The translations under genes were made by a program, and so were the position numbers. From assembly GCA_001776905.1 (NCBI GenBank), contig MFDM01000017.1, forward strand, positions 1 to 34,765: DNA of 34,765 nucleotides. The letters are read 5' to 3'. This stretch comes from Candidatus Daviesbacteria bacterium RIFCSPLOWO2_01_FULL_39_12. Lineage in GTDB: Bacteria; Patescibacteriota; Microgenomatia; Daviesbacterales; UBA10151. The notes below the pieces were generated by a model. That model ran no database searches, had not been told where the DNA came from, and saw only the letters and a program-made list of their open reading frames with translations. Of the stretch, positions 6,965-21,982 are shown piece after piece (position 1 is the first letter of the stretch; every line of letters starts with the position of its first letter).

Positions 6965-7012
6965 CCTTCGACTCGCTTACGCTCGCTCAGGATGACCAAG
7001 TTTGACTTGGTC
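6965..7012. repeat. Palindromic intergenic repeats in the pyrB leader
   Basis: 6965-6992 has the form CCTTCGACTCGC..GCTCGCTCAGGA, a TCGAAGGA/CTGAGCGAG type of imperfect palindrome. It resembles the insert at 7503-7529 and a fragment at 24601-24612. Next to it, 6994-7012 is a perfect hairpin with eight-base arms GACCAAGT/ACTTGGTC and a three-base loop. The first element also supplies the Shine-Dalgarno of pyrB. Confidence 0.8.
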
Positions 7013-7125: not shown

Positions 7126-7395
7126 ATGGGGACAAGATCGAAAAAAGAGCGTTCATTCCATAAGGAATTACTACAACAGTTAATCACACTTTCTACCTCT
7201 GGTTTTGGACTGGTAGCAGCTTTGGCTTGGAATGAAGCCATCCAAAGTTTTGTTAAGGAATACATTCAAAGGTTTTATCCGGGTCAAGCAGGCGTAATCT
7301 CCAAATTCCTCTACGCCATCCTTATTACAGGCTTTGCAGTTTTAATTACCTATCAACTTTCCCGTTTAGCCTCCAGATGGGGAGTAAAAAAATGA
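7126..7395 (+). CDS. DUF5654-like small membrane protein, 89 aa
   Basis: Residues about 18-36 (TLSTSGFGLVAALAWNEAIQ) and a second hydrophobic helix near residues 62-80 match the two-helix pattern I associate with DUF5654 proteins of archaea and CPR bacteria; function unknown. I chose the ATG at 7126 over a TTG at 7090. A TATGAT box (7114-7119) ends six bases before this ATG, implying a leaderless mRNA, and a TATAAT (7082-7087) overlaps the TTG. The stop codon overlaps the next gene by four bases (ATGA), so it is coupled to the KGF-anchored protein downstream. The N-terminus is basic, as expected for a cytoplasmic N-terminal tail. Confidence 0.7.
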   Translation: MGTRSKKERSFHKELLQQLITLSTSGFGLVAALAWNEAIQSFVKEYIQRFYPGQAGVISKFLYAILITGFAVLITYQLSRLASRWGVKK

Positions 7396-8303
7396 ATCAA
7401 AAAGGATTTACCCCAATTTTAATAGTAATTATTTTAGCTGCAGTTTTGGTGGGTGGATATTTGGTTTATCAAAACCAACCCAGACCTACTTCTTCTCCCC
7501 AACCCTTCGACTTCATTCAGGGCAAGCCCACCACTCAACCTTCCCCCAGTCCATCCCCAACGATATCTCTTTCTACAAATAAATCCCCTACTCCTAAACC
7601 GAAGAGTTCAGCATCATCTCCCACTCCTTCTCCCACTCCTTTTGGGGCAAATGACCCTATAACTGAGAAGGCAGCATGTGGCGAAGTTCCCCCATCTAAT
7701 TCTCCAGCTTTTGGAGGAACCCCTTTAAGGGTATCCTTTTCCCCTAGTGGTAGCGTAAATTATACATACGGCACAATGGAAGGCTATCAATGGGATTTTG
7801 ACAGTAATGGTGTTTGGGATACAGGTGTTGTTCAAAGCAACGACTCCTACTACATTTATACAAAACCGGGAACTTATACCGCCACCTATAGAGTAAGAAC
7901 AAGTCAAAACACCTGGTCAAAAAATTGTATATACCCGTATAAAATAACAATTAGTGAGTCCTCTTCCGAAGGAATTAGCGTGGATAAAAACGAGTTTGAA
8001 ATAACAGTTAAGAAATCTGATTATCCAGGTAAAAGTTTTAATACATTTGATGCTTTTAAGGTTAGCACACAAGGAAACACATTTGTGAGTATAAATGCAG
8101 TAAAACAATACTCAGGAGGATTTATATACGATCAAGCTGGAGCTAATTTAAATGCTGGTCAATCATTTCAATTTCATTTAACTGTGGAATTTAATAATCC
8201 TCCGGGTGAATATCTGAATGAGGTTAAAATAATTTATACAAAAAACGGTAATGAAACTGTTGAAGGACCAACTGTCAAATATAAAATAATTCTTAAGGAA
8301 TAA
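7392..8303 (+). CDS. KGF-anchored surface protein with PKD-like domain
   Basis: 303 residues from the ATG at 7392 (GGGGAG lies upstream). Residues 1-27 (QKGFTPILIVIILAAVLVGG) form a prepilin-like membrane anchor: Lys-Gly-Phe-Thr before a hydrophobic helix, though the Glu5 of true pilins is absent. A Pro/Ser/Thr-rich spacer (about 28-85) leads to a PKD-like beta-sandwich (about 105-190; YQWDFDSNGVWD and KPGTYTATYRV). A second beta-rich domain reaches the C-terminus. This suggests a cell-surface adhesin-like protein (inference). One of four paralogous anchors in the window. Relative to the paralog at 8991 the spacer has an in-frame insert, FDFIQGKP, encoded by a palindromic element. The last codons abut a scar of the recF 3' end. 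Confidence 0.7.
   Translation: MNQKGFTPILIVIILAAVLVGGYLVYQNQPRPTSSPQPFDFIQGKPTTQPSPSPSPTISLSTNKSPTPKPKSSASSPTPSPTPFGANDPITEKAACGEVPPSNSPAFGGTPLRVSFSPSGSVNYTYGTMEGYQWDFDSNGVWDTGVVQSNDSYYIYTKPGTYTATYRVRTSQNTWSKNCIYPYKITISESSSEGISVDKNEFEITVKKSDYPGKSFNTFDAFKVSTQGNTFVSINAVKQYSGGFIYDQAGANLNAGQSFQFHLTVEFNNPPGEYLNEVKIIYTKNGNETVEGPTVKYKIILKE
7503..7529. repeat. Palindromic element inserted in frame in the anchored-protein gene
   Basis: CCCTTCGACTTC..TCAGGG resembles the intergenic element at 6965. The paralogous gene at 8991 joins SPQP directly to MTQPSPSP, while here SPQP and TTQPSPSP are separated by FDFIQGKP, which fits a clean in-frame insertion. Confidence 0.65.
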
Positions 8304-8348
8304 CTTTCCCATCCTCTACTCTTAAAATTCTGGAGGAATCTAAAAATA
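8301..8348 (-). repeat. recF 3'-end scar 1
   Basis: About 40 of 48 bases match the genuine recF 3' end (11081-11128) by eye. On the minus strand it still reads FLDSSRILRVEDGKV, against FLDLARILKVEDGKI in RecF. It begins exactly at the stop codon of the upstream anchored protein, as the real recF tail does at 11081. Confidence 0.8.
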
Positions 8349-8765
8349 TTACTTTTTAACTGGGGTAATCTCAACTATTCCGTGATCTTTCTCGAATCTA
8401 ATTCTGAAAGCATCAAAAAAGCCATCTTGTCCGAGTATTACAGCCACTCCGGGACTGTTAACAAAACCTACCGTAACTGTAATTTCTTCATTCATTCCAA
8501 TTATCTGTAATTTTACCTTCTGTAAATTTGCTTTCAGGGATCCTCCTTCAATACCAGCAAAATTCTCATTATTTTCCTCATTTAAATCTAAACCAATATC
8601 TTTTGCTATTTTATTGTTAAACAAACAGCGGTCAGCTCCCGAATCTATCAATCCATAACCCTCCCAAAATCTTTTGGGGCCAATTATTCTGATGGGAATA
8701 TAAGGACGTGCAATCCATTTTAGATTAGGATTATATGAAGGTAATTTAGAATAGGGAAACTTCAT
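8349..8765 (-). CDS. Retropepsin-like aspartic protease, 138 aa (copy A)
   Basis: Residues 38-44 read GLIDSGA, the Asp-Ser-Gly-Ala catalytic motif of aspartic proteases. A flap-containing middle region and an ILGQDGFF segment near residue 110 correspond to the second conserved Ile-Leu-Gly motif of retropepsins. With a single catalytic Asp per chain and about 138 residues, it must dimerise to be active, as retroviral protease does (family knowledge). No signal peptide or TM, so presumably cytoplasmic. Its start overlaps the stop of the DUF5678-like gene by four bases (ATGA). A paralogous pair with the same gene order lies at 21996-22603, so the two genes form a mobile or duplicated module. Target unknown. 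Confidence 0.75.
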   Translation of the reverse strand: MKFPYSKLPSYNPNLKWIARPYIPIRIIGPKRFWEGYGLIDSGADRCLFNNKIAKDIGLDLNEENNENFAGIEGGSLKANLQKVKLQIIGMNEEITVTVGFVNSPGVAVILGQDGFFDAFRIRFEKDHGIVEITPVKK

Positions 8766-8959
8766 CTAGTAGATGGCACATATGAAACATCAAAAGGTGG
8801 CACTTTTATAAAAAGGAATCTTTTTTTAGTTTTTTCTGCCTGTTTTCTTGCCTGCTCTAAAGTATCACCTACCCCTAAAACCTTTTTATTATCCTCAGAT
8901 AAAGCCACCCACTTATCCTCATAAGGTAACAATATTTTAGATAAATCAATTGGTTTCAT
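8762..8959 (-). CDS. DUF5678-like small protein, 65 aa (copy A)
   Basis: Residues about 10-60 follow the pattern Y-x-x-K-W-V-A-L-S..V-L-G-x-G-x-T-L-E-x-A..K-V-P, which I associate with DUF5678. The fold is probably a small alpha/beta unit; function unknown. I chose the ATG at 8959, 13 codons inside the longest frame, because an extended -10 (TGG-TATAAT, 8966-8974) lies six bases upstream and overlaps the longer frame's start. Translationally coupled to the retropepsin-like protease by an ATGA overlap. The small-protein-plus-protease layout resembles a toxin-antitoxin or protease-substrate pair, but nothing in the sequence proves that. Confidence 0.65.
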   Translation of the reverse strand: MKPIDLSKILLPYEDKWVALSEDNKKVLGVGDTLEQARKQAEKTKKRFLFIKVPPFDVSYVPSTR

Positions 8960-8965
8960 GTTGTT

Positions 8966-8983
8966 ATTATACCATGCTATACT
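8966..8983. promoter_or_regulatory. Overlapping divergent leaderless promoters
   Basis: Minus strand: TGG-TATAAT (8966-8974), then six bases to the ATG at 8959. Plus strand: TGC-TATACT (8975-8983), then seven bases to the ATG at 8991. The two extended -10 elements abut back to back around CATG at 8973-8976, so polymerase can probably occupy only one at a time. Confidence 0.65.
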
Positions 8984-8990
8984 AAATTTA

Positions 8991-9674
8991 ATGTCCACTT
9001 CAAAAAGTTTCAGTGTAAACCAAAAAGGCTTTGCTCCAATATTAATAATTATTTTAATAGCTGCTTTAGCAATTGGTGGATATTTGGTTTACTCCGATAA
9101 AATCGGAGTTTACCAAAACCAACCTAAACCTATTCCTTCTCCTCAACCAATGACTCAACCTTCTCCCAGTCCAGCTACTATCTATGAATCCACAAATTCT
9201 GCAGAAACTGCCAACTGGAAAACATATACACACTATGAACTTGGTTATACTGTTAAATATCCTGAAACTTGGTTATTTGATGAACCAAACTACCAACTAA
9301 CCTATTCAGAATTTACAATTAAAACTCCGGATCTAAAACGCGAAGGTGATTCTTATTACAGTATCGTAAAAGGATCGCAAATTTCTATCTCTGTAGGTAA
9401 ATACGCAACAAAGCTTAATTCAATAGATGATTACTTTGATAAAAATAAGTTTATGCAACAGATAACGGCAAATAGAAAACATATTATAATTGATGGACAA
9501 CCAGCTATAAGATTTGATCAAGCTTATGAAGGAATAAATAGTACTAACATTATTTTTCTTTATAATGGTTTGCTTTACACTATTGGTATTCATTTCCCCA
9601 TAACTGATAACTCAAGAACTACCAATTTAGATGTATATGAAAAACTAGTAAATTCATTTAGGCTGGCTAAATGA
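8991..9674 (+). CDS. KGF-anchored surface protein, 227 aa
   Basis: Start taken as the ATG at 8991, seven bases after an extended -10 (TATACT), with the bases between identical to those before the paralog at 10409. Residues about 9-34 (NQKGFAPILIIILIAALAIG) form the prepilin-like anchor. A Pro/Ser-rich spacer follows, then a globular region beginning NWKTYTHYELGYTVKYPETW near residue 75. This W-K-T-Y..Y-x-x-K-Y-P pattern recurs in the paralogs at 10409 and 21155 and is typical of secreted CPR proteins of unknown function. No cysteine is evident. Divergent from the DUF5678/retropepsin pair and sharing its promoter region. The stop codon opens a degraded recF-tail scar. Confidence 0.7.
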   Translation: MSTSKSFSVNQKGFAPILIIILIAALAIGGYLVYSDKIGVYQNQPKPIPSPQPMTQPSPSPATIYESTNSAETANWKTYTHYELGYTVKYPETWLFDEPNYQLTYSEFTIKTPDLKREGDSYYSIVKGSQISISVGKYATKLNSIDDYFDKNKFMQQITANRKHIIIDGQPAIRFDQAYEGINSTNIIFLYNGLLYTIGIHFPITDNSRTTNLDVYEKLVNSFRLAK

Positions 9675-9712
9675 ATTTTTCATCTTCCACCTTCAAATTC
9701 CTTCCTTAATAA
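9672..9712 (-). repeat. recF 3'-end scar 2 (degraded)
   Basis: Starts at the stop codon of the preceding gene. Its minus strand still reads NLKVEDEKF, recognisable against ILKVEDGKI of RecF, but homology fades after about 30 bases. Confidence 0.55.
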
Positions 9713-9721
9713 CCAATAACT

Positions 9722-9735
9722 TGTACGATCGCACA
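9722..9735. promoter_or_regulatory. CGATCG-centred operator-like site, copy 3
   Basis: TGTACGATCGCACA differs at one position from the perfect palindrome at 1746. Its context also matches the PaaX-like gene's promoter on the minus strand: a TAGTG before the site, then CGATCG, TACAAG as a -10-like box and TTATTGG (CAATTGG at 1736-1742). No minus-strand gene follows at once, so it may be a relic. Confidence 0.5.
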
Positions 9736-9757
9736 CTATATTGTTATCTATGCACGT

Positions 9758-9770
9758 AAGGTTGAACCTT
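9758..9770. repeat. Perfect inverted repeat AAGGTT-G-AACCTT
   Basis: A 13-base palindrome 22 bases beyond the CGATCG site in the gap between two recF scars. Could be an operator half or part of an old mobile-element end; no other copy was seen. Confidence 0.45.
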
Positions 9771-9781
9771 GCGAGGCTAAA

Positions 9782-9830
9782 TGATATTTCCATCCTCCAC
9801 TTTTAAAATCCTGGATGAATCCAGAAAATT
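9782..9830 (-). repeat. recF 3'-end scar 3
   Basis: About 37 of 48 bases match the true recF end. The minus strand reads FLDSSRILKVEDGNI. Most differences from scar 1 are synonymous. The bases before it (GGCTAAATGA) also match the end of the anchored gene at 9665-9674, so part of that gene's 3' end was duplicated with the recF tail. Confidence 0.75.
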
Positions 9831-9850
9831 TTAATGGTATAATATTATTT

Positions 9851-10162
9851 ATGGATATACAAATTCCCTTAACTATAAAGTTAACAGAAGATAAACAGTC
9901 CAAATCTGCTCCTTGGGTAGCTTACACTCCGGAATTGGATGTAGCCTCCTGCGGTCCAAGCCCGGGAAAAGCCAAGAAAAATCTTATGGAAGCAGTGGAA
10001 ATTATCCTAAAAGGGGCAGCTGATGATGGTAACTTAAAAGATTTATTACTGGAGACTGGTTTTGAAATTAACGCTTCAAGGCTGACTCCTCCTAAAGTTA
10101 GTCTGGATAAATTTACTTTTAATCTTAATCCAGATCTTACCCGCCAGATATGGCCCGCATAA
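9851..10162 (+). CDS. hicB: HicB-like antitoxin
   Basis: 103 residues from the ATG at 9851, chosen because an extended -10 (TGG-TATAAT, 9835-9843) ends seven bases upstream and overlaps a longer frame. Residues about 20-55 (WVAYTPELDVASCGPSPGKA followed by an amphipathic helix) show the partly degraded RNase-H-like HicB fold: a strand, the Pro-Glu-Leu turn, a Gly-x-Ser/Thr helix start and Ala-x-x-Asn-Leu. In HicAB systems HicB binds and neutralises the HicA mRNA interferase and often represses its own promoter. The tail (about 80-103) probably contacts the toxin or DNA. The gene overlaps hicA by 13 bases, antitoxin first. Confidence 0.7.
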   Translation: MDIQIPLTIKLTEDKQSKSAPWVAYTPELDVASCGPSPGKAKKNLMEAVEIILKGAADDGNLKDLLLETGFEINASRLTPPKVSLDKFTFNLNPDLTRQIWPA

Positions 10163-10380
10163 CACCAATCCATTGGCGAAAACTTTTAAAAATTTTCCAG
10201 GCTGAAGCCTGCATATTAGTTGGCCAAACAGGAGATCATCTGGAACTTAAGAAAGCAGGCGCCAAGAGAAGAATTGTTATCCCAAAATATAGAGACATCC
10301 CAGTTTTTATCATTGAAAATAATTTGAAAACTGCCGGAATCTCCAGAAAAAGATACTTTGAACTTCAACAAAAAGTTTAA
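10150..10380 (+). CDS. hicA: HicA-like toxin (double-stranded-RNA-binding-fold mRNA interferase)
   Basis: 76 residues. The pattern W-x-K-L-L-K-I-F..C-I-L-V-G-Q-T-G-D-H..R-R-I-V-I-P-K-Y..A-G-I-S-R-K-R-Y-F fits HicA. His30 of the Gly-Asp-His segment would be the catalytic histidine (usually Gly-Ser-His). It starts inside the 3' end of the HicB-like gene, as expected for a coupled pair, though HicB-first order is the less common arrangement. The pair sits between recF scar 3 and an anchored-protein gene, part of the accessory array. Activity cannot be judged from sequence alone. Confidence 0.7.
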   Translation: MARITPIHWRKLLKIFQAEACILVGQTGDHLELKKAGAKRRIVIPKYRDIPVFIIENNLKTAGISRKRYFELQQKV

Positions 10381-10408
10381 TTCTAAATGATCTGGTATAC
10401 TAAATTTA

Positions 10409-11083
10409 ATGAACCAAAAAGGATTAATCCCAATATTAATCGTTTTAATCATTGCTGCCTTAGTTGGTGGATATTTGATTTATCAAAAACAAACTAAATC
10501 TACATCTACGCCTTCGTCTCAACAAACCATTCAAATATCTCCTAGTCCAGTTGATTCCACTGCTAATTGGAAAACATATACGAATACAAAATATAATTTC
10601 CAATTGAAATACCCTCTAGATTGGAATGTAGAATCAATTCCATCTATAAACTCACCAAATAATGAACTAGGTGAATCTGATTATTTAAGATTTTATAATG
10701 AGGCTAAAAATTTGGAAAATAAAAAATTTGTGGAAGAATGTACCAAAAATCCTACGCTCACTAAATGTGGTACAGAAAGATATGCAAATGGTATTTTTGT
10801 TAATATTCATGAAAATAAGGATAAGACAAATTTTGAAACTTATTTTCAAAAAGATCTTGCTAAAAATCTTACTATTACTGGAGATATTAATGAAATTATT
10901 AGTAAATCCAAAAAAGATCAAATTGGATCTCTTAATATTATAAAGGGGAACAAGGTTGACGTTACTGGATGGCCTTATTATTACTTTCAGAACCCTTCTG
11001 GTAATATTGCGTTTATTATAGACGGAAGTGAATCAGAAAAAACTGTATATCAAATCCTTTCCACCTTTAAATCCCTGCCGTAA
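10409..11083 (+). CDS. KGF-anchored surface protein, 224 aa
   Basis: Residues 1-25 (NQKGLIPILIVLIIAALVGG) are the prepilin-like anchor; here Phe is replaced by Leu after Lys-Gly. A Ser/Thr/Gln/Pro spacer follows, then the NWKTYTNTKYNFQLKYPLDW motif near residue 50. Two cysteines (about residues 110 and 118, CTKNPTLTKC) could form a disulfide outside the cell. The start follows an extended -10 (TGG-TATACT, 10393-10401) by seven bases, the same promoter cassette as the paralog at 8991. The gene converges with recF and overlaps its last 17 bases. This junction appears to be the ancestral version of those repeated as scars upstream. Confidence 0.7.
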   Translation: MNQKGLIPILIVLIIAALVGGYLIYQKQTKSTSTPSSQQTIQISPSPVDSTANWKTYTNTKYNFQLKYPLDWNVESIPSINSPNNELGESDYLRFYNEAKNLENKKFVEECTKNPTLTKCGTERYANGIFVNIHENKDKTNFETYFQKDLAKNLTITGDINEIISKSKKDQIGSLNIIKGNKVDVTGWPYYYFQNPSGNIAFIIDGSESEKTVYQILSTFKSLP

Positions 11084-12125
11084 TTTTTCCATCCTCTACT
11101 TTTAAAATTCTGGCCAAATCTAAAAAGGTTTTAGGAATATTTTCTAACTCTACTGTGGCAATGATGGTTTGCTGCTTGCCCACTATTTCCACCACATGAG
11201 CTCTATGATCTGCATCAAGTTCGGAGAATACATCATCCAAAAGTAATATTGGCCTTTTGCCTAAAATTTTGGCCATATATTCTAACTGGACCAATTTAAA
11301 AACCAGGGTGGCTGTTCTTTGTTCGCCCCTGGAACCATAATGTGATAGGTGTCTACCATCTAGCATCACCACATAATCATCTCTATGTGGTCCTATCAGC
11401 GTAGCAGCAGCAGCTACTTCCCGACCATTTGTTTCAGCCAGTTTTTCCACTGATATTTCAGATGGGATATATTCAAAAATAAACTCACCCAAGGGTTTTT
11501 CTAATCCATTGATGAAATTAAAAAACTCTTTTCTCTTTTCACTTATCACTTTTCCCTTGCTCACTAATTCCTCTGTCCAATACTCCAGCTCATTCACCCT
11601 GGCGTGTCCTTCTCTGATTCTTTTTAGCACCCTATTTCTGGCTGTTAAAAACTGTTCGTATTGAGTGAGTGATTTCTTGTAATCAGAATCAATCTGAGCC
11701 AGGGCCAAATCCAGATGCCATCTTCGAAGACTGGGTGGACCAGTTACCATATTAATATCCGAGGGATAAAAAATCACTGCCGGTAAATTACCAATAAAAT
11801 CTATGGTTCTTCTGGAAATCCCATTAACTAAAACTTTTTTCCTGAAAGAGACTTCATCAGAAGGCTTGTTAATAATCACCAAAAGTCCAGTTTCAGGATC
11901 ATCCAGAATGCCTTCTACTTTGGTAAAACTCTCTCCGGTCCTGATTAATTCATCTTCAGTATCTACTCTTTGGGATTTAGTGGTGGAAAGTAAATAGATG
12001 CTTTCCAAAAGATTAGATTTTCCCACCGCATTATTACCAACAAAAACTGCCGGGCGACTGTCAAAATCTAAATTGAGGACAGAATAGTTCCTAAAATTTG
12101 TCAGATTAAGTTGCTTAAGAAACAT
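11067..12125 (-). CDS. recF: DNA replication and repair protein RecF
   Basis: 352 residues, normal length. SMC-like ABC ATPase that acts with RecO and RecR to load RecA at single-strand gaps. Visible motifs: Walker A GNNAVGKS at residues 30-37, an ABC signature SRGEQRTATL in the third quarter, and Walker B PILLLDDVFSELD at about 292-304 with a D-loop Ser-Glu-Leu-Asp. The N-terminal LKQLNLTNFRNY is typical of RecF. The start lies two bases after the MFS gene's stop, with GGAAAGGTAAGG as ribosome-binding region, so recF is probably cotranscribed with the permease. Its last 48 bases are repeated, diverged, at 8301, 9672 and 9782. No dnaA, dnaN or gyrB is adjacent, unlike the usual bacterial order. 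Confidence 0.95.
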   Translation of the reverse strand: MFLKQLNLTNFRNYSVLNLDFDSRPAVFVGNNAVGKSNLLESIYLLSTTKSQRVDTEDELIRTGESFTKVEGILDDPETGLLVIINKPSDEVSFRKKVLVNGISRRTIDFIGNLPAVIFYPSDINMVTGPPSLRRWHLDLALAQIDSDYKKSLTQYEQFLTARNRVLKRIREGHARVNELEYWTEELVSKGKVISEKRKEFFNFINGLEKPLGEFIFEYIPSEISVEKLAETNGREVAAAATLIGPHRDDYVVMLDGRHLSHYGSRGEQRTATLVFKLVQLEYMAKILGKRPILLLDDVFSELDADHRAHVVEIVGKQQTIIATVELENIPKTFLDLARILKVEDGKITAGI

Positions 12126-12127
12126 CC

Positions 12128-13498
12128 TTACCTTTCCCAGTGTCCCAATCCCAAAAATTCCCTCAAAGAATACGCCAGTTCGCCTTTTTTAAAAAACAGA
12201 GCTGGTTTTAAACCAAACAATCCAATCAAGAAAATAATCACGCCCAGCCCTAAAAATATCGGATTGGTCCCGAAAATATCAGCCAGCACTCCTGCCAAAA
12301 GAACCGGTATTAAAGATAGTCCAGCCATGGCCACCCCCAATACCGCAAACACTTTCCCTCTATCCTGATTGGAAGTATTTTCCTGTAAAACTGTTTGGGA
12401 AGGAACCAATATTGATACCATAGCCAACCCTAATAAAAATGAACCGACAATCAGTACTGCTGACAAAGGCGGTTGGGTAATAAAAGATAAGGGTCTGGCA
12501 TGAGGTAAATACTTAACAGCAGGAGAGACAATAGGTGCAATCCCCACCAGAATAAACAGCAGTCCGCTAAAAACAATGGCCTTGGATACCACCACTCTTC
12601 TGATGATATTGTGGCCGAACTTACCTAAGATAAATCCACCCAAAATAATTCCCATCCCGACAGGGAAAACCATCACATATGAGGCATCAGTAGCCTGGAT
12701 GTGTAAGACTCTTTCCAAAAAAGCGGGTATCAAGACTGCCAAAACCCCCACCACCATCTGGACCCCTCCCAAAATTAATATAGAAGTCATTACTGGTAAT
12801 TTGCCTTTAATCATCCTAATGGTTTGTAAAATTTCCCATAAACCCACCTCTTTAATCTGAAGATAGTTCTTATTTAAAATGGCAAAAATCAGCTTCTTAC
12901 CTGCCCTTGTTGGTCTGGCATAAATAGTAGGGAAGAGAAAAGATAAACCAAAAGCAATAAAAAGAATAAGAGCGCCCATCAAAAAAACAAAGTTAATCCC
13001 AAAGTGATTAATTAAAAAGCCAGATAAACCAAAACCAACCAAAAATGTAGTGTAGAGAGTAGCTGAAATTATGGAATTGGCAGCAATCAGTTGTTTTCTC
13101 TTGACAATCATGGGAATAGCAGAGGCCTCAGTGGGAGCATAAAATTGGCTCAATGCATTAATCAAAAAAGCTATTACTAAAATTGCCGGATAAAATACTT
13201 TTAAAAATATCAAACTTAAAAATAGTAAACAAAGCAAAATATCAATAGTCATGATAATCTTTTTTTTGTTGATTAAATCAACCAAAACTCCGGTAAATAA
13301 ACCTAAAATAACTGCCGGCAAATAGATGAAAAAAAGCAGAGTAGCCACAGCAGTATTTGAACCTGTTAACTTAAATACCCAAATAATTAAGGCAAAATTT
13401 AGGGCATTATAGGAAAGCTGGACTAAAATTTGATTTATCCATAAATTTAAAAATCCCCGGTTTTGAATAACAGAAGTAAAAGTCACCCTCTCGGCCAT
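12128..13498 (-). CDS. Major facilitator superfamily permease
   Basis: 456 residues from the ATG at 13498, preferred to the first in-frame codon at 13534 because a full promoter (TTGCCC, 17 bases, TATAAT) places the -10 seven bases before it. About 12 hydrophobic helices are visible in two sets of six, with the MFS motif-A-like loop (GLFTGVLVDLINKKKIIM) between helices 2 and 3. The second half includes GMGIILGGFILGKFGHNIIRR and a glycine-rich helix LGVAMAGLSLIPVLLAG. The EntS/macrolide-efflux-like branch is likely, but the substrate cannot be read. It precedes recF by two bases and diverges from the cyclase-like gene at 13558 with overlapping promoter DNA. Confidence 0.85.
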   Translation of the reverse strand: MAERVTFTSVIQNRGFLNLWINQILVQLSYNALNFALIIWVFKLTGSNTAVATLLFFIYLPAVILGLFTGVLVDLINKKKIIMTIDILLCLLFLSLIFLKVFYPAILVIAFLINALSQFYAPTEASAIPMIVKRKQLIAANSIISATLYTTFLVGFGLSGFLINHFGINFVFLMGALILFIAFGLSFLFPTIYARPTRAGKKLIFAILNKNYLQIKEVGLWEILQTIRMIKGKLPVMTSILILGGVQMVVGVLAVLIPAFLERVLHIQATDASYVMVFPVGMGIILGGFILGKFGHNIIRRVVVSKAIVFSGLLFILVGIAPIVSPAVKYLPHARPLSFITQPPLSAVLIVGSFLLGLAMVSILVPSQTVLQENTSNQDRGKVFAVLGVAMAGLSLIPVLLAGVLADIFGTNPIFLGLGVIIFLIGLFGLKPALFFKKGELAYSLREFLGLGHWER

Positions 13499-13505
13499 AG
13501 ACCCA

Positions 13506-13547
13506 ATTATAAAGCCTTTTGACAATTTGGGCAAAATTGTGTATAAA
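13506..13547. promoter_or_regulatory. Interleaved divergent promoters (MFS gene and cyclase-like gene)
   Basis: Plus: TTGACA (13519-13524), a 17-base spacer, TATAAA (13542-13547), with the ATG at 13558. Minus: TTGCCC (complement of 13529-13534), a 17-base spacer, TATAAT (complement of 13506-13511), with the ATG at 13498. The -35 and spacer regions of the two promoters overlap, so they should compete for polymerase. Confidence 0.75.
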
Positions 13548-13557
13548 CTAACAGCTT

Positions 13558-14160
13558 ATGGCTGAATTTATTAATAAACCTCCTCCTGAAGAGGCTACTC
13601 ATGGGCTTACCGGAGAGGAAAAATATATATCAGTACTGATTGCCAGATTACCTGCTTTCTATTCTATGGCAGAGGGTAAGTCACCGCTGGAAAGCACTAA
13701 TTTGCTGAATGGTTGTTTTAAAAAAGTAGTACCACCTATCTTAAGTCACAAGGGCAGAGTTGACCAATATGTAGTTTCTGTAGTCCCCGCTGTTGTGGCC
13801 AGATTTGGTGCTCCAATACCAATAGTAGAACGCAGAATTGTTGAGGCTGTAGCCGCTGCGCTGGAAATCGGGCAGATCATGAAAGAGGCAAGTCTACCTG
13901 TTACTCTGACCGTGAACAGAGGTCTGGCTTATGTAGGTAATATCGGCACCGAAGACAGAATACAATATACAATTGTAGGTCCAATGGTTAATGAGGCGTT
14001 TAGTATGTCTGCCAGGCAAAAACCTGATACCATTATTGTCATGGGCCGGAAAATTGAAGAAGATACGGAAGTCTTAAGTCTGATACAAAAAAGTGCTCTT
14101 GCTATAAATTTGAGGCCGTTGTGGGATGAGCCTGGGCCTGCTTATCAATTAACTATTTAA
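13558..14160 (+). CDS. Degenerate class III nucleotidyl-cyclase-fold protein (predicted inactive)
   Basis: 200 residues. Residues about 22-160 align with the cyclase homology domain: YISVLIARLPAF (normally VLFADLVGF), LLNGCFKKVVPPILSHKGRV, VDQYVVSVVPAV (normally VDKFIGDAVMAV), FGAPIP and VGNIGTEDRIQYTIVGPMVN (normally GNIGSEDRxDYTVIGDxVN). Both metal-binding Asp positions are replaced (Arg30 and Ser74), and the Asp of the Ile-Gly-Asp turn is Pro142. Asn145 remains, but the usual downstream Arg is not evident. The fold signature is strong, so cyclic-nucleotide synthesis is unlikely and a regulatory or scaffold role is inferred. A strong promoter (13519-13547) drives it. It converges with mutM, overlapping by four bases. 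No TM segment or sensor domain is attached. Confidence 0.75.
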   Translation: MAEFINKPPPEEATHGLTGEEKYISVLIARLPAFYSMAEGKSPLESTNLLNGCFKKVVPPILSHKGRVDQYVVSVVPAVVARFGAPIPIVERRIVEAVAAALEIGQIMKEASLPVTLTVNRGLAYVGNIGTEDRIQYTIVGPMVNEAFSMSARQKPDTIIVMGRKIEEDTEVLSLIQKSALAINLRPLWDEPGPAYQLTI

Positions 14161-15011
14161 CTTTGGCATCTTGGGCAAAAATAGGTGCCGCGACCACCCA
14201 GAGTAATCTTTTTAATTTCTGTTTTGCAGACTTTACAGGGATGTTTATCTCTCCAATAAACCTTGGCATAATCTAAAAAATAACCTTTGTGGCCTTCGGG
14301 ATCTACAAAATGGGCTCTGGTAGAACCTCCATGCTTTATGCCATTTTTGATCACCTTGATCACCCCTTTATGGATGGCTTTAAATTCCCCATCTCCCAAA
14401 TCTCCCACTTTGGTTCTTGGATCCAGCTTAGCATCAAAACAGGCCTCGTTGGAGTAAATATTCCCCACTCCAGAAACCACAGACTGATCCATGATGGCTA
14501 CTTTTATTGGCATAGACTTATGTTTTAAAAGATTTTGTTTCAGAATCTGCCAGGTGAAACTTTTCTCCAAGGGTTCGGGGCCTAGTTTCTCAAATAACTT
14601 GTTACTTGTTACTTGTGCCTTGTTACTTACTCGTATCCAGCCAAACTTCCGCTGATCATTAAAATATAAATGTGACCCATCGGAAAAAGAAAAAATCACT
14701 CTGGTATGGGAATTCGGCATTTTCCCTAACATATCTTCTGTGGGATGTCCGCCTATGAAACGCCCACCATCCTCATAAATTAGCTGACCACTCATCTTTA
14801 AATGAAAAAGTAAAATTGTCTGATCTTCTGACAACTCAACTCCCAACATCTTGGCTTTTCTCCAAATATCCACCACTTTTTTACCTTCCACCTGATTAGG
14901 ATTCCCTATAAAAGATTTAGGCGAATTAACTTGCACCTTGGTAATCCTTAACCCTAAAATTTTCTTTTGTAAACCTAACTTGATAGTTTCTACCTCAGGA
15001 AGCTCAGGCAT
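14157..15011 (-). CDS. mutM: Formamidopyrimidine-DNA glycosylase
   Basis: 284 residues, normal size. Removes oxidised purines such as 8-oxoguanine and cuts the abasic site. It begins MPELPEVET, where Pro2 is the nucleophile and Glu3 catalytic. The catalytic Lys region (WRKAKML, Lys54) and the H2TH region (SGVGNIYSNEACFDAKLDP) are present. The C-terminal zinc finger is Cys259-x2-Cys262 ... Cys279-x2-Cys282 with the DNA-binding Arg274. A simple repeat (GTAACAA-type) encodes VSNKAQVTSNK at about residues 128-138 in a surface loop. The start has an extended -10 TGA-TAAAAT (15018-15026) six bases upstream. The TGA of this element is also the mltG stop codon. Confidence 0.95.
   Translation of the reverse strand: MPELPEVETIKLGLQKKILGLRITKVQVNSPKSFIGNPNQVEGKKVVDIWRKAKMLGVELSEDQTILLFHLKMSGQLIYEDGGRFIGGHPTEDMLGKMPNSHTRVIFSFSDGSHLYFNDQRKFGWIRVSNKAQVTSNKLFEKLGPEPLEKSFTWQILKQNLLKHKSMPIKVAIMDQSVVSGVGNIYSNEACFDAKLDPRTKVGDLGDGEFKAIHKGVIKVIKNGIKHGGSTRAHFVDPEGHKGYFLDYAKVYWRDKHPCKVCKTEIKKITLGGRGTYFCPRCQS
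14595..14629. repeat. GTTACTT tandem repeat inside mutM
   Basis: Several imperfect TTGTTACTTG-type units (GTAACAAG on the coding strand), in frame, encoding the Ser-Asn-Lys/Val-Thr-Ser-Asn-Lys loop of MutM. It looks like a simple-sequence expansion in a tolerant loop. Confidence 0.75.
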
Positions 15012-16372: not shown

Positions 16373-17010
16373 CAAACCATTTTACCTAAAACCACCAATC
16401 TTTTAAAATTTAATCCGGGTGGGACACAGGTCATCAAGGATATGTATCTGCCTACTGTATCCGGAGGATTTATGACAGATAGATCTGAAGGCTTAACTAC
16501 TTTCAGCTCAATCACTTCATAGACAAATTCACTCCCGCCTGCCTCAACTAAAATCTTGTCTCCTTTTTTTAAATCCTGTAACTTGGCAAATGGAGCATCT
16601 TTGATATCTTTAAAAAAATTTATGGCAGAATGACCCGAGATAAAAACATTGCCTTTTTCTCCTGGTAGGGCTGTTCCGGGAAGATGAGCCAAGCCCCTTG
16701 TTAAATCATTACTGTCAACCAAAACTTCCTTTTTATTAAGCTTAAGTTTGGGGATTGTCAGCTTAAACTCCACATAATTGGGCGGATTTTTTCTTTGGGC
16801 AGAAGATACAAAATAGGAAAAATTATCACTATTGGTAATGGTCACTCCTAAGACATTACTGCTTCTTGAGGTGGTAGGGCTAATCAGCTGGTTTTGATAC
16901 TTAATGCCTGTTTCCCATATCTGGAAAGAGATAAAAGGCAAAATAATCTGCATCAGAAAAAATACTCCCAAGAAAAGAAAGCCTAAAGAAACAATCTTTA
17001 AGGAACTCAC
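16372..17010 (-). CDS. Sortase (class D/E-like transpeptidase)
   Basis: 212 residues, GTG start overlapping the upstream stop by four bases. A signal-anchor helix occupies residues about 5-28, then an exposed linker. The sortase barrel begins near residue 80 (YVEFKLTIPKLKL). His127 lies in FISGHS, Cys195 in SLMTCVPPG and Arg204 in FKRLVV, giving a complete His-Cys-Arg catalytic set. Sortases cleave LPxTG-type signals and attach proteins to the cell wall or to pilins. I saw no obvious LPxTG-like substrate in this window, so its clients lie elsewhere or use an unusual signal. Cotranscribed with the PilM/baseplate-like gene. Confidence 0.88.
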   Translation of the reverse strand: MSSLKIVSLGFLFLGVFFLMQIILPFISFQIWETGIKYQNQLISPTTSRSSNVLGVTITNSDNFSYFVSSAQRKNPPNYVEFKLTIPKLKLNKKEVLVDSNDLTRGLAHLPGTALPGEKGNVFISGHSAINFFKDIKDAPFAKLQDLKKGDKILVEAGGSEFVYEVIELKVVKPSDLSVINPPDTVGRYISLMTCVPPGLNFKRLVVLGKMV

Positions 17011-19222: not shown

Positions 19223-21118
19223 TTAAGTAAGCTGTGCTCTGATACGTCTTACTCCAAAAGACACTGCTTCCTCTTTGGTAATTTTGATCTTACCAATCAT
19301 TCCAGTATGTTCTATATGGGGCCCGCCACAAAATTCTAATGAATAGTACCCACCTCTGTCTCTTTGATCCAAGGCTTTAGGATCCAGTTGATAATCGGGA
19401 CCTACTCCATAAATTGAAACTTTATCTGCATATTTTTCATTAAATAAACCAATTGCATTCATTGCTTTGGCTTCCTCAAGTGGAATAATCATATGGTCCA
19501 CCCTTAGGTCCTGCTTTATTCTTTCATTCACCAAATCTTCCACCGCTTTTATTTCTTCACCAGTCATTTTTCTATCAAAAGAAAAATCAAACCTTAACCT
19601 GTCTGCCGTAATGTTGGAACCTTTCTGGAAAACTTGCGGCCCTAAAACATCCCTTAAGGCCTGATGCAAAAGATGGGTTGCTGTGTGATATTTGGTTACA
19701 ACTTCAGAATGATCTACCAACCCTCCTTTAAACATTCCGGCAGATGCAGTTCTGGATAATTCCCTGTGTTTCTCCATTGCCTCCTTCATAGTTTCTTCGT
19801 CAAACTCTAAACCCCATTCTTTCATGATCTCCTGTGAAATCTCAGGAGGCAAACCATATGTTTCATAAATTTTGAATACTTCATCTCCACTTATTCTAAG
19901 TTTATTACCTTCTATTATGTTTCCCTGTAGATTATCAGGATCTATTCCACCAAAAACTTTGGTATAAATTCTTTTCAGAGCTTTTCTTCCTTCATCTATA
20001 GTTTTTCTAAACTTATCCACTTCTTGAGTAATGATTTCATTAATTTGTGGGACATTTTTATCTATATGAGGGTATTGTTTTATATAAGGGGTTACTAAAT
20101 CTGCAAAGATATTTGATAACCATTCATCTCCTATCATTCCAAGTTTTCGTGATTGAACCATTGATCTACGAATCAAACGACGCAAAACATAACCTTGTTC
20201 CTTATTAGAAGGTTTTACTCCATCTCCTACCATGAAAATAGCTGCTCTTAAATGTTCAACAATAATTCTATACGGTCGCGGGTTAGTTTTATAATCAGGC
20301 GCGCTACTTTTTCTAATTGCCTCCAAAGATTTAATTGCATCAGCAAAAAAATCTGTTTGAAAGATATCTGGGTTGTTATTAGAGACAGCAGTTAATCTCT
20401 CAAGACCCCCTCCAAAATCTACATTGTTTTCAGTCAATTCTCTTAGCAATCCATCTGTCCGTTTTAGATATTGGATAAAAACAGAGTTGCCGATTTCTAA
20501 AAACCTGCCGCATTCACAATTGGGGTGGCACTCTTTACCATATTTTTCATCATGGGGGGTGCCAAAATCATAAAAAACCTCGCAGTCAGGTCCGCCAATT
20601 TCTCCTTCCGGCATTTTATCCGGTGGTCCTGATCTGGACCACCAGTTTTTATCTACTCCATAAAAGAAAATATGGTCATCATCAACTCCTAAACTTTTCC
20701 AAATTTCATATGATTCCATATCCTTTGGAACATCTCCGTCACCTTCAAAAACAGATACATATAATTTTTCTTTTGGCAGTCTCAATTCTTTTGTTAAAAA
20801 CTCAAAAAACCAGGGGATCTGTTCTTTTTTAGAATAATCTCCAAGTGACCAATTACCTAGCATCTCAAAAAAGGTGGTGTGTCTATTATCCCCAACTTCC
20901 TCAATATCTTCTGCCCGAAAACAGGGTTGAGAATTAACCAACCTTTTTCCTTCCGGATGCTCTTGGCCTAAAAGGTATGGAACCAAAGGTTGCATACCTG
21001 AGGAGGTAAAAAGAGTTGTGGGATCATTTTCAGGGACTAACTTTGCCGGAGCAATTTCCTTATGCCCCCTACCAACAAAAAACTTAATATATTTTTCTCT
21101 AATTTGTTTAGAATCCAT
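19223..21118 (-). CDS. alaS: Alanine--tRNA ligase lacking the C-terminal domain
   Basis: 631 residues against about 870 for typical bacterial AlaRS. The class II catalytic core is complete (FTSSGMQPLVPYLLGQEHP; motif 2 CFRAEDIEEVGDNRHTTFFE; FGGGLERL-like DFGGGLERLTAVSN), followed by the tRNA-recognition helices. The editing domain has its metal ligands His478, His482 (HTATH), Cys597 and His601 (CGGPH). The protein ends just after the editing domain (VSFGVRRIRAQLT), so the oligomerisation/C-Ala (DHHA1-like) domain is missing. No frameshifted remainder lies downstream. Start chosen from a promoter, CTGACA-17-TGT TACAAT (21125-21153), six bases before ATG. Confidence 0.93.
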   Translation of the reverse strand: MDSKQIREKYIKFFVGRGHKEIAPAKLVPENDPTTLFTSSGMQPLVPYLLGQEHPEGKRLVNSQPCFRAEDIEEVGDNRHTTFFEMLGNWSLGDYSKKEQIPWFFEFLTKELRLPKEKLYVSVFEGDGDVPKDMESYEIWKSLGVDDDHIFFYGVDKNWWSRSGPPDKMPEGEIGGPDCEVFYDFGTPHDEKYGKECHPNCECGRFLEIGNSVFIQYLKRTDGLLRELTENNVDFGGGLERLTAVSNNNPDIFQTDFFADAIKSLEAIRKSSAPDYKTNPRPYRIIVEHLRAAIFMVGDGVKPSNKEQGYVLRRLIRRSMVQSRKLGMIGDEWLSNIFADLVTPYIKQYPHIDKNVPQINEIITQEVDKFRKTIDEGRKALKRIYTKVFGGIDPDNLQGNIIEGNKLRISGDEVFKIYETYGLPPEISQEIMKEWGLEFDEETMKEAMEKHRELSRTASAGMFKGGLVDHSEVVTKYHTATHLLHQALRDVLGPQVFQKGSNITADRLRFDFSFDRKMTGEEIKAVEDLVNERIKQDLRVDHMIIPLEEAKAMNAIGLFNEKYADKVSIYGVGPDYQLDPKALDQRDRGGYYSLEFCGGPHIEHTGMIGKIKITKEEAVSFGVRRIRAQLT

Positions 21119-21124
21119 GAAGCT

Positions 21125-21153
21125 ATTGTAACAGGAAAGGAGAAAGCTGTCAG
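21125..21153 (-). promoter_or_regulatory. alaS promoter
   Basis: Minus strand: CTGACA (complement of 21148-21153), a 17-base spacer, TACAAT (complement of 21125-21130) with an upstream TGT extension. The ATG of alaS follows after six bases, so a leaderless mRNA is likely. The whole promoter fits in the 36-base gap after the anchored-protein gene. Confidence 0.75.
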
Positions 21154-21154
21154 C

Positions 21155-21982
21155 CTATTTTTTGATACATTTTCCACCTGCATCTGGATAATCTCCATCT
21201 AACTTACATCTATAACCTTCTGGACATTGATTTTCTGGCAAATTAGCCCCAATCCCTCCACAAAACCTACCTTCAGGATTTGTTGTATCTAAAAATTTAA
21301 AAGTAGAAAGCATTTGGTCAGTAGTTAATTCATAATAACCTTCTAATTGATTACCCTCATCATCCATACATTTTGTATTAATTATTTCTATTAAATAACC
21401 AGAATTATTTTTAGGTATTAACAATGACTCACTATTACATTTAGAATCTCCACTTTTGTATAAATATGCTTCTACTAAACTTTCTATTTTTTGTGGAGCA
21501 AATTCACTGACTTCCTTTGTTTTATCATGAACCCACTTTTTATTAGTAGAATCATAAATAAAAATAAATCCTCCAGAATTATCTATCAATTTATATTTAT
21601 TTAACTGATAAACATTGACTGTGACTATATTTGCCTTATTAATATGGAAGCTCTCTGCTGTTAAAGGGGTTACATCACCTTTAGGAGTATTAAATGTATT
21701 TTGGACAAATACATTTGGATATTTAAACTCAAATCCATATTCTTTATTTGTATATGTTTTCCAATTTGATGTTTCATCAGAAACTTGGGGACAGGCTGCA
21801 AATTCACAGTTTGGTCCCATTCTTCCAACAACTGATCCATCAGGACAAATTTTAGCATCAGCTGTACAGGCAATTTGCTTTGGCTGATTTAAATTTATTT
21901 TTCCAGAATATACTAAATATCCTCCAATTGCTGCGGCTATTATTAGAACTATTAATATAGGAGCAAATCCTTTGTAGTTCAC
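21155..21982 (-). CDS. KGF-anchored cysteine-rich surface protein, 275 aa
   Basis: GTG start at 21982 with a TATACC box (21990-21995) seven bases upstream; the interval resembles the promoter cassette of the paralogs at 8991 and 10409. Residues about 3-23 (YKGFAPILIVLIIAAAIGGY) form the anchor. Residues about 37-66 hold a Cys-rich CPDGSVVGRMGPNCEFAACP segment (four Cys). Then comes the NWKTYTNKEYGFEFKYPNVF motif shared with the paralogs. The C-terminus has a second Cys-rich module (FCGGIGANLPENQCPEGYRC..GGKC). Paired cysteines imply extracytoplasmic disulfides. Function unknown; protease-inhibitor-like or adhesive roles are possible. It lies directly after a retropepsin/DUF5678 pair on the same strand. 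Confidence 0.7.
   Translation of the reverse strand: MNYKGFAPILIVLIIAAAIGGYLVYSGKINLNQPKQIACTADAKICPDGSVVGRMGPNCEFAACPQVSDETSNWKTYTNKEYGFEFKYPNVFVQNTFNTPKGDVTPLTAESFHINKANIVTVNVYQLNKYKLIDNSGGFIFIYDSTNKKWVHDKTKEVSEFAPQKIESLVEAYLYKSGDSKCNSESLLIPKNNSGYLIEIINTKCMDDEGNQLEGYYELTTDQMLSTFKFLDTTNPEGRFCGGIGANLPENQCPEGYRCKLDGDYPDAGGKCIKK

Follow-up and report, generated by a model that had tools for sequence, protein, structure and literature searches.

Displaced recF 3′ ends beside small toxin-antitoxin and anchored-protein cassettes suggest repeated one-sided import in a Daviesbacteria-like genome

Results

In the window (the whole 34,765-nt stretch of DNA analysed here), we found that the 3′ end of recF recurs as displaced tails between cassettes of small genes. 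The tails are real, their orientation and geometry are fixed, the cargo at this locus turns over among relatives and the scars lie in ancestral context; in addition, pooled scars diverge from intact gene ends as alleles do, and scars of this type are found at other genes. The best explanation is probably repeated one-sided import, by homology-facilitated illegitimate recombination, of DNA made up of a gene end and a cassette.

The intact recF (11067..12125, minus strand; SMC_N, PF02463, E=1.5e-15) is the one full-length copy in the genome, and its current 3′ end encodes FLDLARILKVEDGKITAGI followed by a stop codon. The predicted repeats of this end, in the same orientation, at 8301-8348 and 9782-9829 were borne out: the segment at 8301-8348 (tail 1, 8293..8348) is identical to the current recF end at 40 of 48 positions and that at 9782-9829 (tail 3, 9777..9829) at 37 of 48, both on the strand of recF (minus). 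As a control, 300 dinucleotide-model shuffles of the 11-kb flank reached 32/48 at best, with a mean of 27. Using a weight matrix for the recF end built from 26 relatives, tail 1 scored 49 bits and tail 3 scored 53 bits, compared to a shuffle maximum of 10. Tail 1 translates as FLDSSRILRVEDGKVIP and tail 3 as FLDSSRILKVEDGNII, each up to a stop codon. A whole-genome search returned no further copies of the recF end beyond these two, and a degenerate tail pattern run against 45 family genomes matched recF ends and the known tails, with nothing else.

A degraded recF tail had also been proposed at 9672-9712 (minus strand), which we did not uphold. This segment matches the recF end at 28 of 48 positions, within the shuffle range, and tail 3 at 35 of 48, and the remaining half corresponds to the 3′ end of the KGF-type gene beside recF in the relative G028 (L070; STFKFLP, the stop codon and the flank); it is therefore read as a chimera of a KGF-type 3′ end with a possible recF terminus, or as a KGF remnant. 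Similarly, the "operator-like palindrome" of the adjoining gap proved to be two palindromic motifs (9720..9779) that pattern searches found dispersed family-wide. One, around TGTACGATCGTACA, lies at 9720-9736 and again at 1744-1760 of the window, has 5 sites in this genome, is present in 13 of the 45 family genomes searched, and is a candidate regulator site or repeat. The second, CGCAAGGT-N3-ACCTTACG (9755-9779), is found directly 3′ of the recF stop codon in the relatives G028 and G014. The flank of tail 3 resembles that of the resident recF in these two genomes, a match that is weaker than first thought since the gap motifs are dispersed. Elsewhere in the window, 6968-6995 and 7505-7530 carry a similar CCTTCGACT...CTCAGG, one of them within the coding region of KGF-anchored protein 1, and may represent a small dispersed repeat.

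The genes around the tails were assigned by family matches, and the toxin-antitoxin labels are putative to that extent. The DUF5654 gene (7126..7395, plus strand; PF18898, E=3e-21), ancestrally the convergent neighbour of recF, has an ATGA overlap with KGF-anchored protein 1 (7392..8303, plus; weak PKD match, from Pfam and the ORF list). Beyond tail 1 lie a retropepsin/gag-asp-protease-like protein (8349..8765, minus; PF13975, E=2.5e-4, below the curated cut-off), whose stop codon abuts the tail, a DUF5678 protein that is likely its partner (8762..8998, minus; PF18929, E=7e-8) and KGF-anchored protein 2 (8958..9674, plus; PsbP_2-like, PF18933, E=5e-7). PADLOC gave weak matches only, to the protease-like protein. 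Between tail 3 and recF lie a HicB-like antitoxin (9851..10162, plus), whose ORF can be extended to 9815, into tail 3, a HicA toxin (10150..10380, plus; PF07927, E=2e-8) and KGF-anchored protein 3 (10409..11083, plus; PsbP_2-like, PF18933, E=8e-5, below the curated cut-off), which overlaps the recF 3′ end. Of the predicted cargo, Pfam thus recovered DUF5678, the aspartyl-protease-like protein, the PsbP_2- and PKD-type anchored proteins and HicA, while "HicB" has no Pfam match and is putative from its position beside HicA. The stop codon of a KGF gene, expected where each scar begins, is present at tail 1, at the 9672 segment and at recF, but no KGF gene ends at tail 3. The absence of an integrase held for the window ORFs examined: at 6-12 kb, no cargo protein matched a recombinase domain in Pfam. 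Two tyrosine recombinases are encoded in the genome, both on other contigs.

The KGF genes have N-terminal sequence in common, as they might if a unit of recF end plus KGF gene had been duplicated in tandem within the locus, with later divergence and insertion of cargo. We regard this as very unlikely, since the KGF bodies differ (PKD versus PsbP_2), the tails differ as alleles do, KGF genes are missing at most of the other scarred genes, and scars with unrelated cargo occur in relatives.

We compared the recF locus with those of relatives, which, where named, are metagenome assemblies; the closest named ones are Candidatus Daviesbacteria assemblies. No other genome of the same genus was found, and an order-level search gave same-family genomes only. 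In many relatives a convergent DUF5654 gene lies directly after recF, overlapping its end by ~10 nt, and is usually followed by pyrC, pyrB, carA and carB. The cargo between recF and DUF5654/pyr varies among genomes, which shows that the locus turns over. As proposed in the original prediction, the recF 3′ flanks of relatives were inspected, and other cargo bounded by a recF tail was found in three other lineages, with constant order and orientation (first the intact recF, then the cargo and the displaced recF tail, and last the old neighbour). This cargo consists of nitrilase-like and CoaBC-like genes in G042, of KGF and DUF433/DUF5615 genes in G028, and of BrnT with a BrnA-like partner in G014:C5. 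This last locus is the second for recF in G014; it lies on a short contig and may have entered the assembly by contamination. The displaced tail of G028 still overlaps the last DUF5654 codons (antisense ELSRLASKFNSH and a stop codon, compare QLSRLASRWG of relatives), and the remainder of DUF5654 is lost. The locus L057 has the order recF-KGF-DUF5654 without scars, an arrangement that is the base state for tail 1 in the window. Since tail 1 sits in this ancestral recF/KGF1/DUF5654 junction and the newest cargo adjoins recF, the array has a direction, with tail 1 the oldest and HicBA-KGF3 the newest part.

We next consider how the copies diverged. Between 13 scars and their intact ends, differences fall 21, 14 and 79 times at first, second and third codon positions, and of the changed codons 71 are synonymous and 29 are not. 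Finding scars through protein similarity could skew such counts, but a DNA-only scan gave essentially the same scar set. The mainly third-position pattern indicates that the scar copies are mostly functional alleles and not decayed duplicates, and that in the pooled set both gene ends diverged mostly while functional. At recF, mostly synonymous differences had been expected. These were seen between tails 1 and 3 (5 of 7 changed codons in a shared 14-codon core), but the two tails differ from the resident recF end by 5 synonymous and 7 other codons, with no synonymous dominance. The origin of scars from functional alleles is accordingly supported by the pooled scars and not by the comparison of the window tails with the resident recF alone. 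Tails 1 and 3 keep the family-typical FLDS(A/S)RIL, from which the resident end (FLDLARIL) deviates.

In three of the scarred loci (L065, L079 and L180), scar and intact end agree almost completely over the first ~28-50 nt and differ in the final codons. Near-identical stretches of this kind, and toxin-antitoxin cargo between long variable duplications, would fit the insertion of an addiction module that duplicates a long stretch of its target around itself, as described for Helicobacter restriction-modification genes. This is an unlikely origin for the scars: a duplicate of what the recipient already had would be identical at first and then accumulate changes at every codon position, whereas most pairs differ mainly at third positions, and beyond the identical part the ends are still homologous gene ends. 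Under one-sided import, an identical start followed by differing codons is expected if the crossover fell inside the tail, leaving host sequence and then the donor end. For recF, there was no clear mosaic breakpoint, and the mosaic test was uninformative. Template and variable repeats of a diversity-generating retroelement are an extremely improbable source of the tails. One apparent tail scar of this genome, at L183, does resemble such a pair, but the recF tails differ at all bases and not specifically at adenines, and the alignments refute this origin for recF. At L183 (G000:C16), 13411-14166 and a repeat ~430 nt downstream differ at adenines and are likely a variable/template pair; this match was set aside by eye on that ground.

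Gene-end scars are, judged from sequence, not confined to recF. The scan covered 1335 ORFs in 1.76 Mb, of which 403 kb belong to this genome; the sample of relatives around recF is biased to recF by design, and genuine scars were sorted from paralogues by eye. In this genome, scars lie 3′ of recF (two), GAPDH, pheT, ychF, a MacB-type permease gene and a 3D-domain protein gene, and in relatives same-strand downstream scars follow pyrC, lig (twice), yjbQ (twice) and a citrate-lyase-like gene. The cargo is a Phd/YefM antitoxin with a RelE-like toxin at GAPDH, a DUF2283 pair at the permease gene, AbiEii at the 3D-domain gene, nucleotidyltransferase-HepT at pyrC and a PIN-domain toxin at one of the two lig scars. 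In raw counts, toxin-antitoxin pairs often precede scars, and toxin-antitoxin-type matches between repeats comprise HicA, BrnT, nucleotidyltransferase/HepT, Phd/YefM, AbiEii, DUF433/DUF5615 and PIN. The pyrC scar at L065 retains a native-looking pyrC-pyrB spacer; L059 and L062 share its pyrC-nucleotidyltransferase(-HepT) order, and the pyrC ending of L062 is similar. No true copy was found upstream of a gene end or on the opposite strand in the 1335-ORF scan, and gene-start scars (at most three) are far rarer than gene-end scars. Outside the window, this genome has 5 scars in 368 kb, compared to one (kdpE/ybfI) in 400 kb of E. coli K-12 and 0 or 1 in 986 kb of relatives' stretches chosen without recF.

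Several further matches were noted during the scan. In E. coli K-12 (L194), kdpE lies at 21057-21734 and the ybfI pseudogene at 16722-16871; a displaced kdpE end behind speF-potE appears to be this pseudogene and a scar of the same type. At L180 (G000:C13), a second, shorter remnant of the permease end may lie ~35 nt past the intact gene (stop at 10916). Matches at L052 and of KGF, pilin and PsbP_2 genes were set aside by eye as paralogues, and that at L184 as gene fragments.

The scars had originally been likened to those of an attachment site, with a cassette whose site mimics and restores the 3′ end of a gene and a recombinase that would act in trans. In E. coli, prophage e14 does this at icd, where the incoming element replaces the gene 3′ end and the old end is displaced as the icdC pseudogene; both icdC and e14 are annotated in the E. 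coli record. Here, too, the gene end is restored and the old end displaced, and two tyrosine recombinases lie elsewhere in the genome. An end carried by the element also fits the synonymous divergence; because integration of the e14 type at icd would leave this signature too, divergence alone is not decisive. However, no crossover is fixed, as the 5′ boundaries of the tails vary: upstream of the FLDS codons, between ~45 nt and no sequence at all is retained. There is also no single target, many unrelated genes being affected, and the cargo is one or two small operons without a recombinase. As a prophage, e14 carries an integrase and has a single target gene, in contrast to the many genes, variable boundaries and lack of a linked integrase seen here. 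These three features decide against an integrase system, and we disfavour the attachment-site model as improbable, though less so than the tandem duplication. Compared with an integron cassette array, which has attC sites and an integron integrase, the repeats at recF are coding ends of that gene.

Discussion

Taken together, these results fit well with the other possibility raised in the original prediction, repeated homologous import of recF-linked cassettes, given the cargo turnover, the pooled synonymous divergence and the displaced tails in ancestral flanks. Each tail would be an earlier recF 3′ end, displaced downstream when a recF 3′ end with a cassette arrived from another lineage. One end would recombine by homology inside recF, so that the gene receives the donor's last codons and stays intact; the allele-like 3′ end on the intact gene and the pooled third-position divergence argue for this anchoring. 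At the far end, joining would take place close to the old 3′ end with no real homology, and the old end would persist as a scar in its original setting. Cassettes would have accumulated between recF and the ancestral DUF5654/pyr genes in at least two, and probably three, events: the first bringing KGF2 with the DUF5678/protease-like pair, the second now reduced to a remnant at 9675-9779, and the third bringing HicBA and KGF3. One-sided import of this kind explains why the geometry is fixed, why the copies diverge as alleles do, why the tails start at different points and why their flanks are ancestral. Since no donor allele and no strain pair with and without a cassette were found, we infer the crossover and the far junction. 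Anchoring may be of the RecA type with illegitimate joining of the far end, uptake may occur by transformation (the genome has a ComEC-family gene, by one family match), and toxin-antitoxin addiction may aid cassette retention.

Several observations go against one-sided import. No clear mosaic breakpoint is seen in recF, and the two window tails taken by themselves lack synonymous dominance against the resident end. The tails are short (11-36 codons) without long remnants, which a random far junction does not predict; only a few bases often separate the end of the cargo from the scar, a fit that looks more precise than random joining; and gene-start scars are scarce compared to gene-end scars. 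The last three observations are consistent with a dedicated, unrecognised mechanism of this lineage that inserts small toxin-antitoxin cassettes just 3′ of core genes, reconstructing the gene end at every insertion, to which we assign a slim chance.

If one-sided import is correct, toxin-antitoxin modules may enter a streamlined genome with no help from transposons or linked integrases and leave ordered scars behind. Displaced gene ends would then be a simple sequence mark by which such imports can be tallied in any genome and acquisition events placed in order. A literature search joining Patescibacteria, toxin-antitoxin and illegitimate recombination found no report.

Homology-facilitated illegitimate recombination has been proposed for the type VI effector-immunity arrays of Vibrio cholerae (PMC5361080), and Rhs/CDI C-terminal ends are displaced likewise, according to the passage that cites them there. 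Like the recF array, the V. cholerae arrays show stepwise displacement of 3′ parts by incoming modules, the newest beside the intact gene (PMC5361080); unlike them, the anchor here is a housekeeping gene of unchanged function, and the cargo consists of toxin-antitoxin and anchored-protein cassettes. In cargo, the nearest match is the insertion of Helicobacter pylori restriction-modification genes with long target duplication (Nobusato 2000, as cited in PMC1643837 and PMC3031569). As those citing articles describe them, these insertions share addiction-module cargo, long variable flanking duplications and the lack of a transposase, but here most copies are divergent alleles, and they are found at the 3′ ends of genes. 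Recombination with one homologous and one illegitimate end occurs in competent bacteria and in E. coli conjugation (PMC3240628). It is known from laboratory constructs and a few loci, whereas here recurrent natural scars in a Daviesbacteria-like genome point to it.
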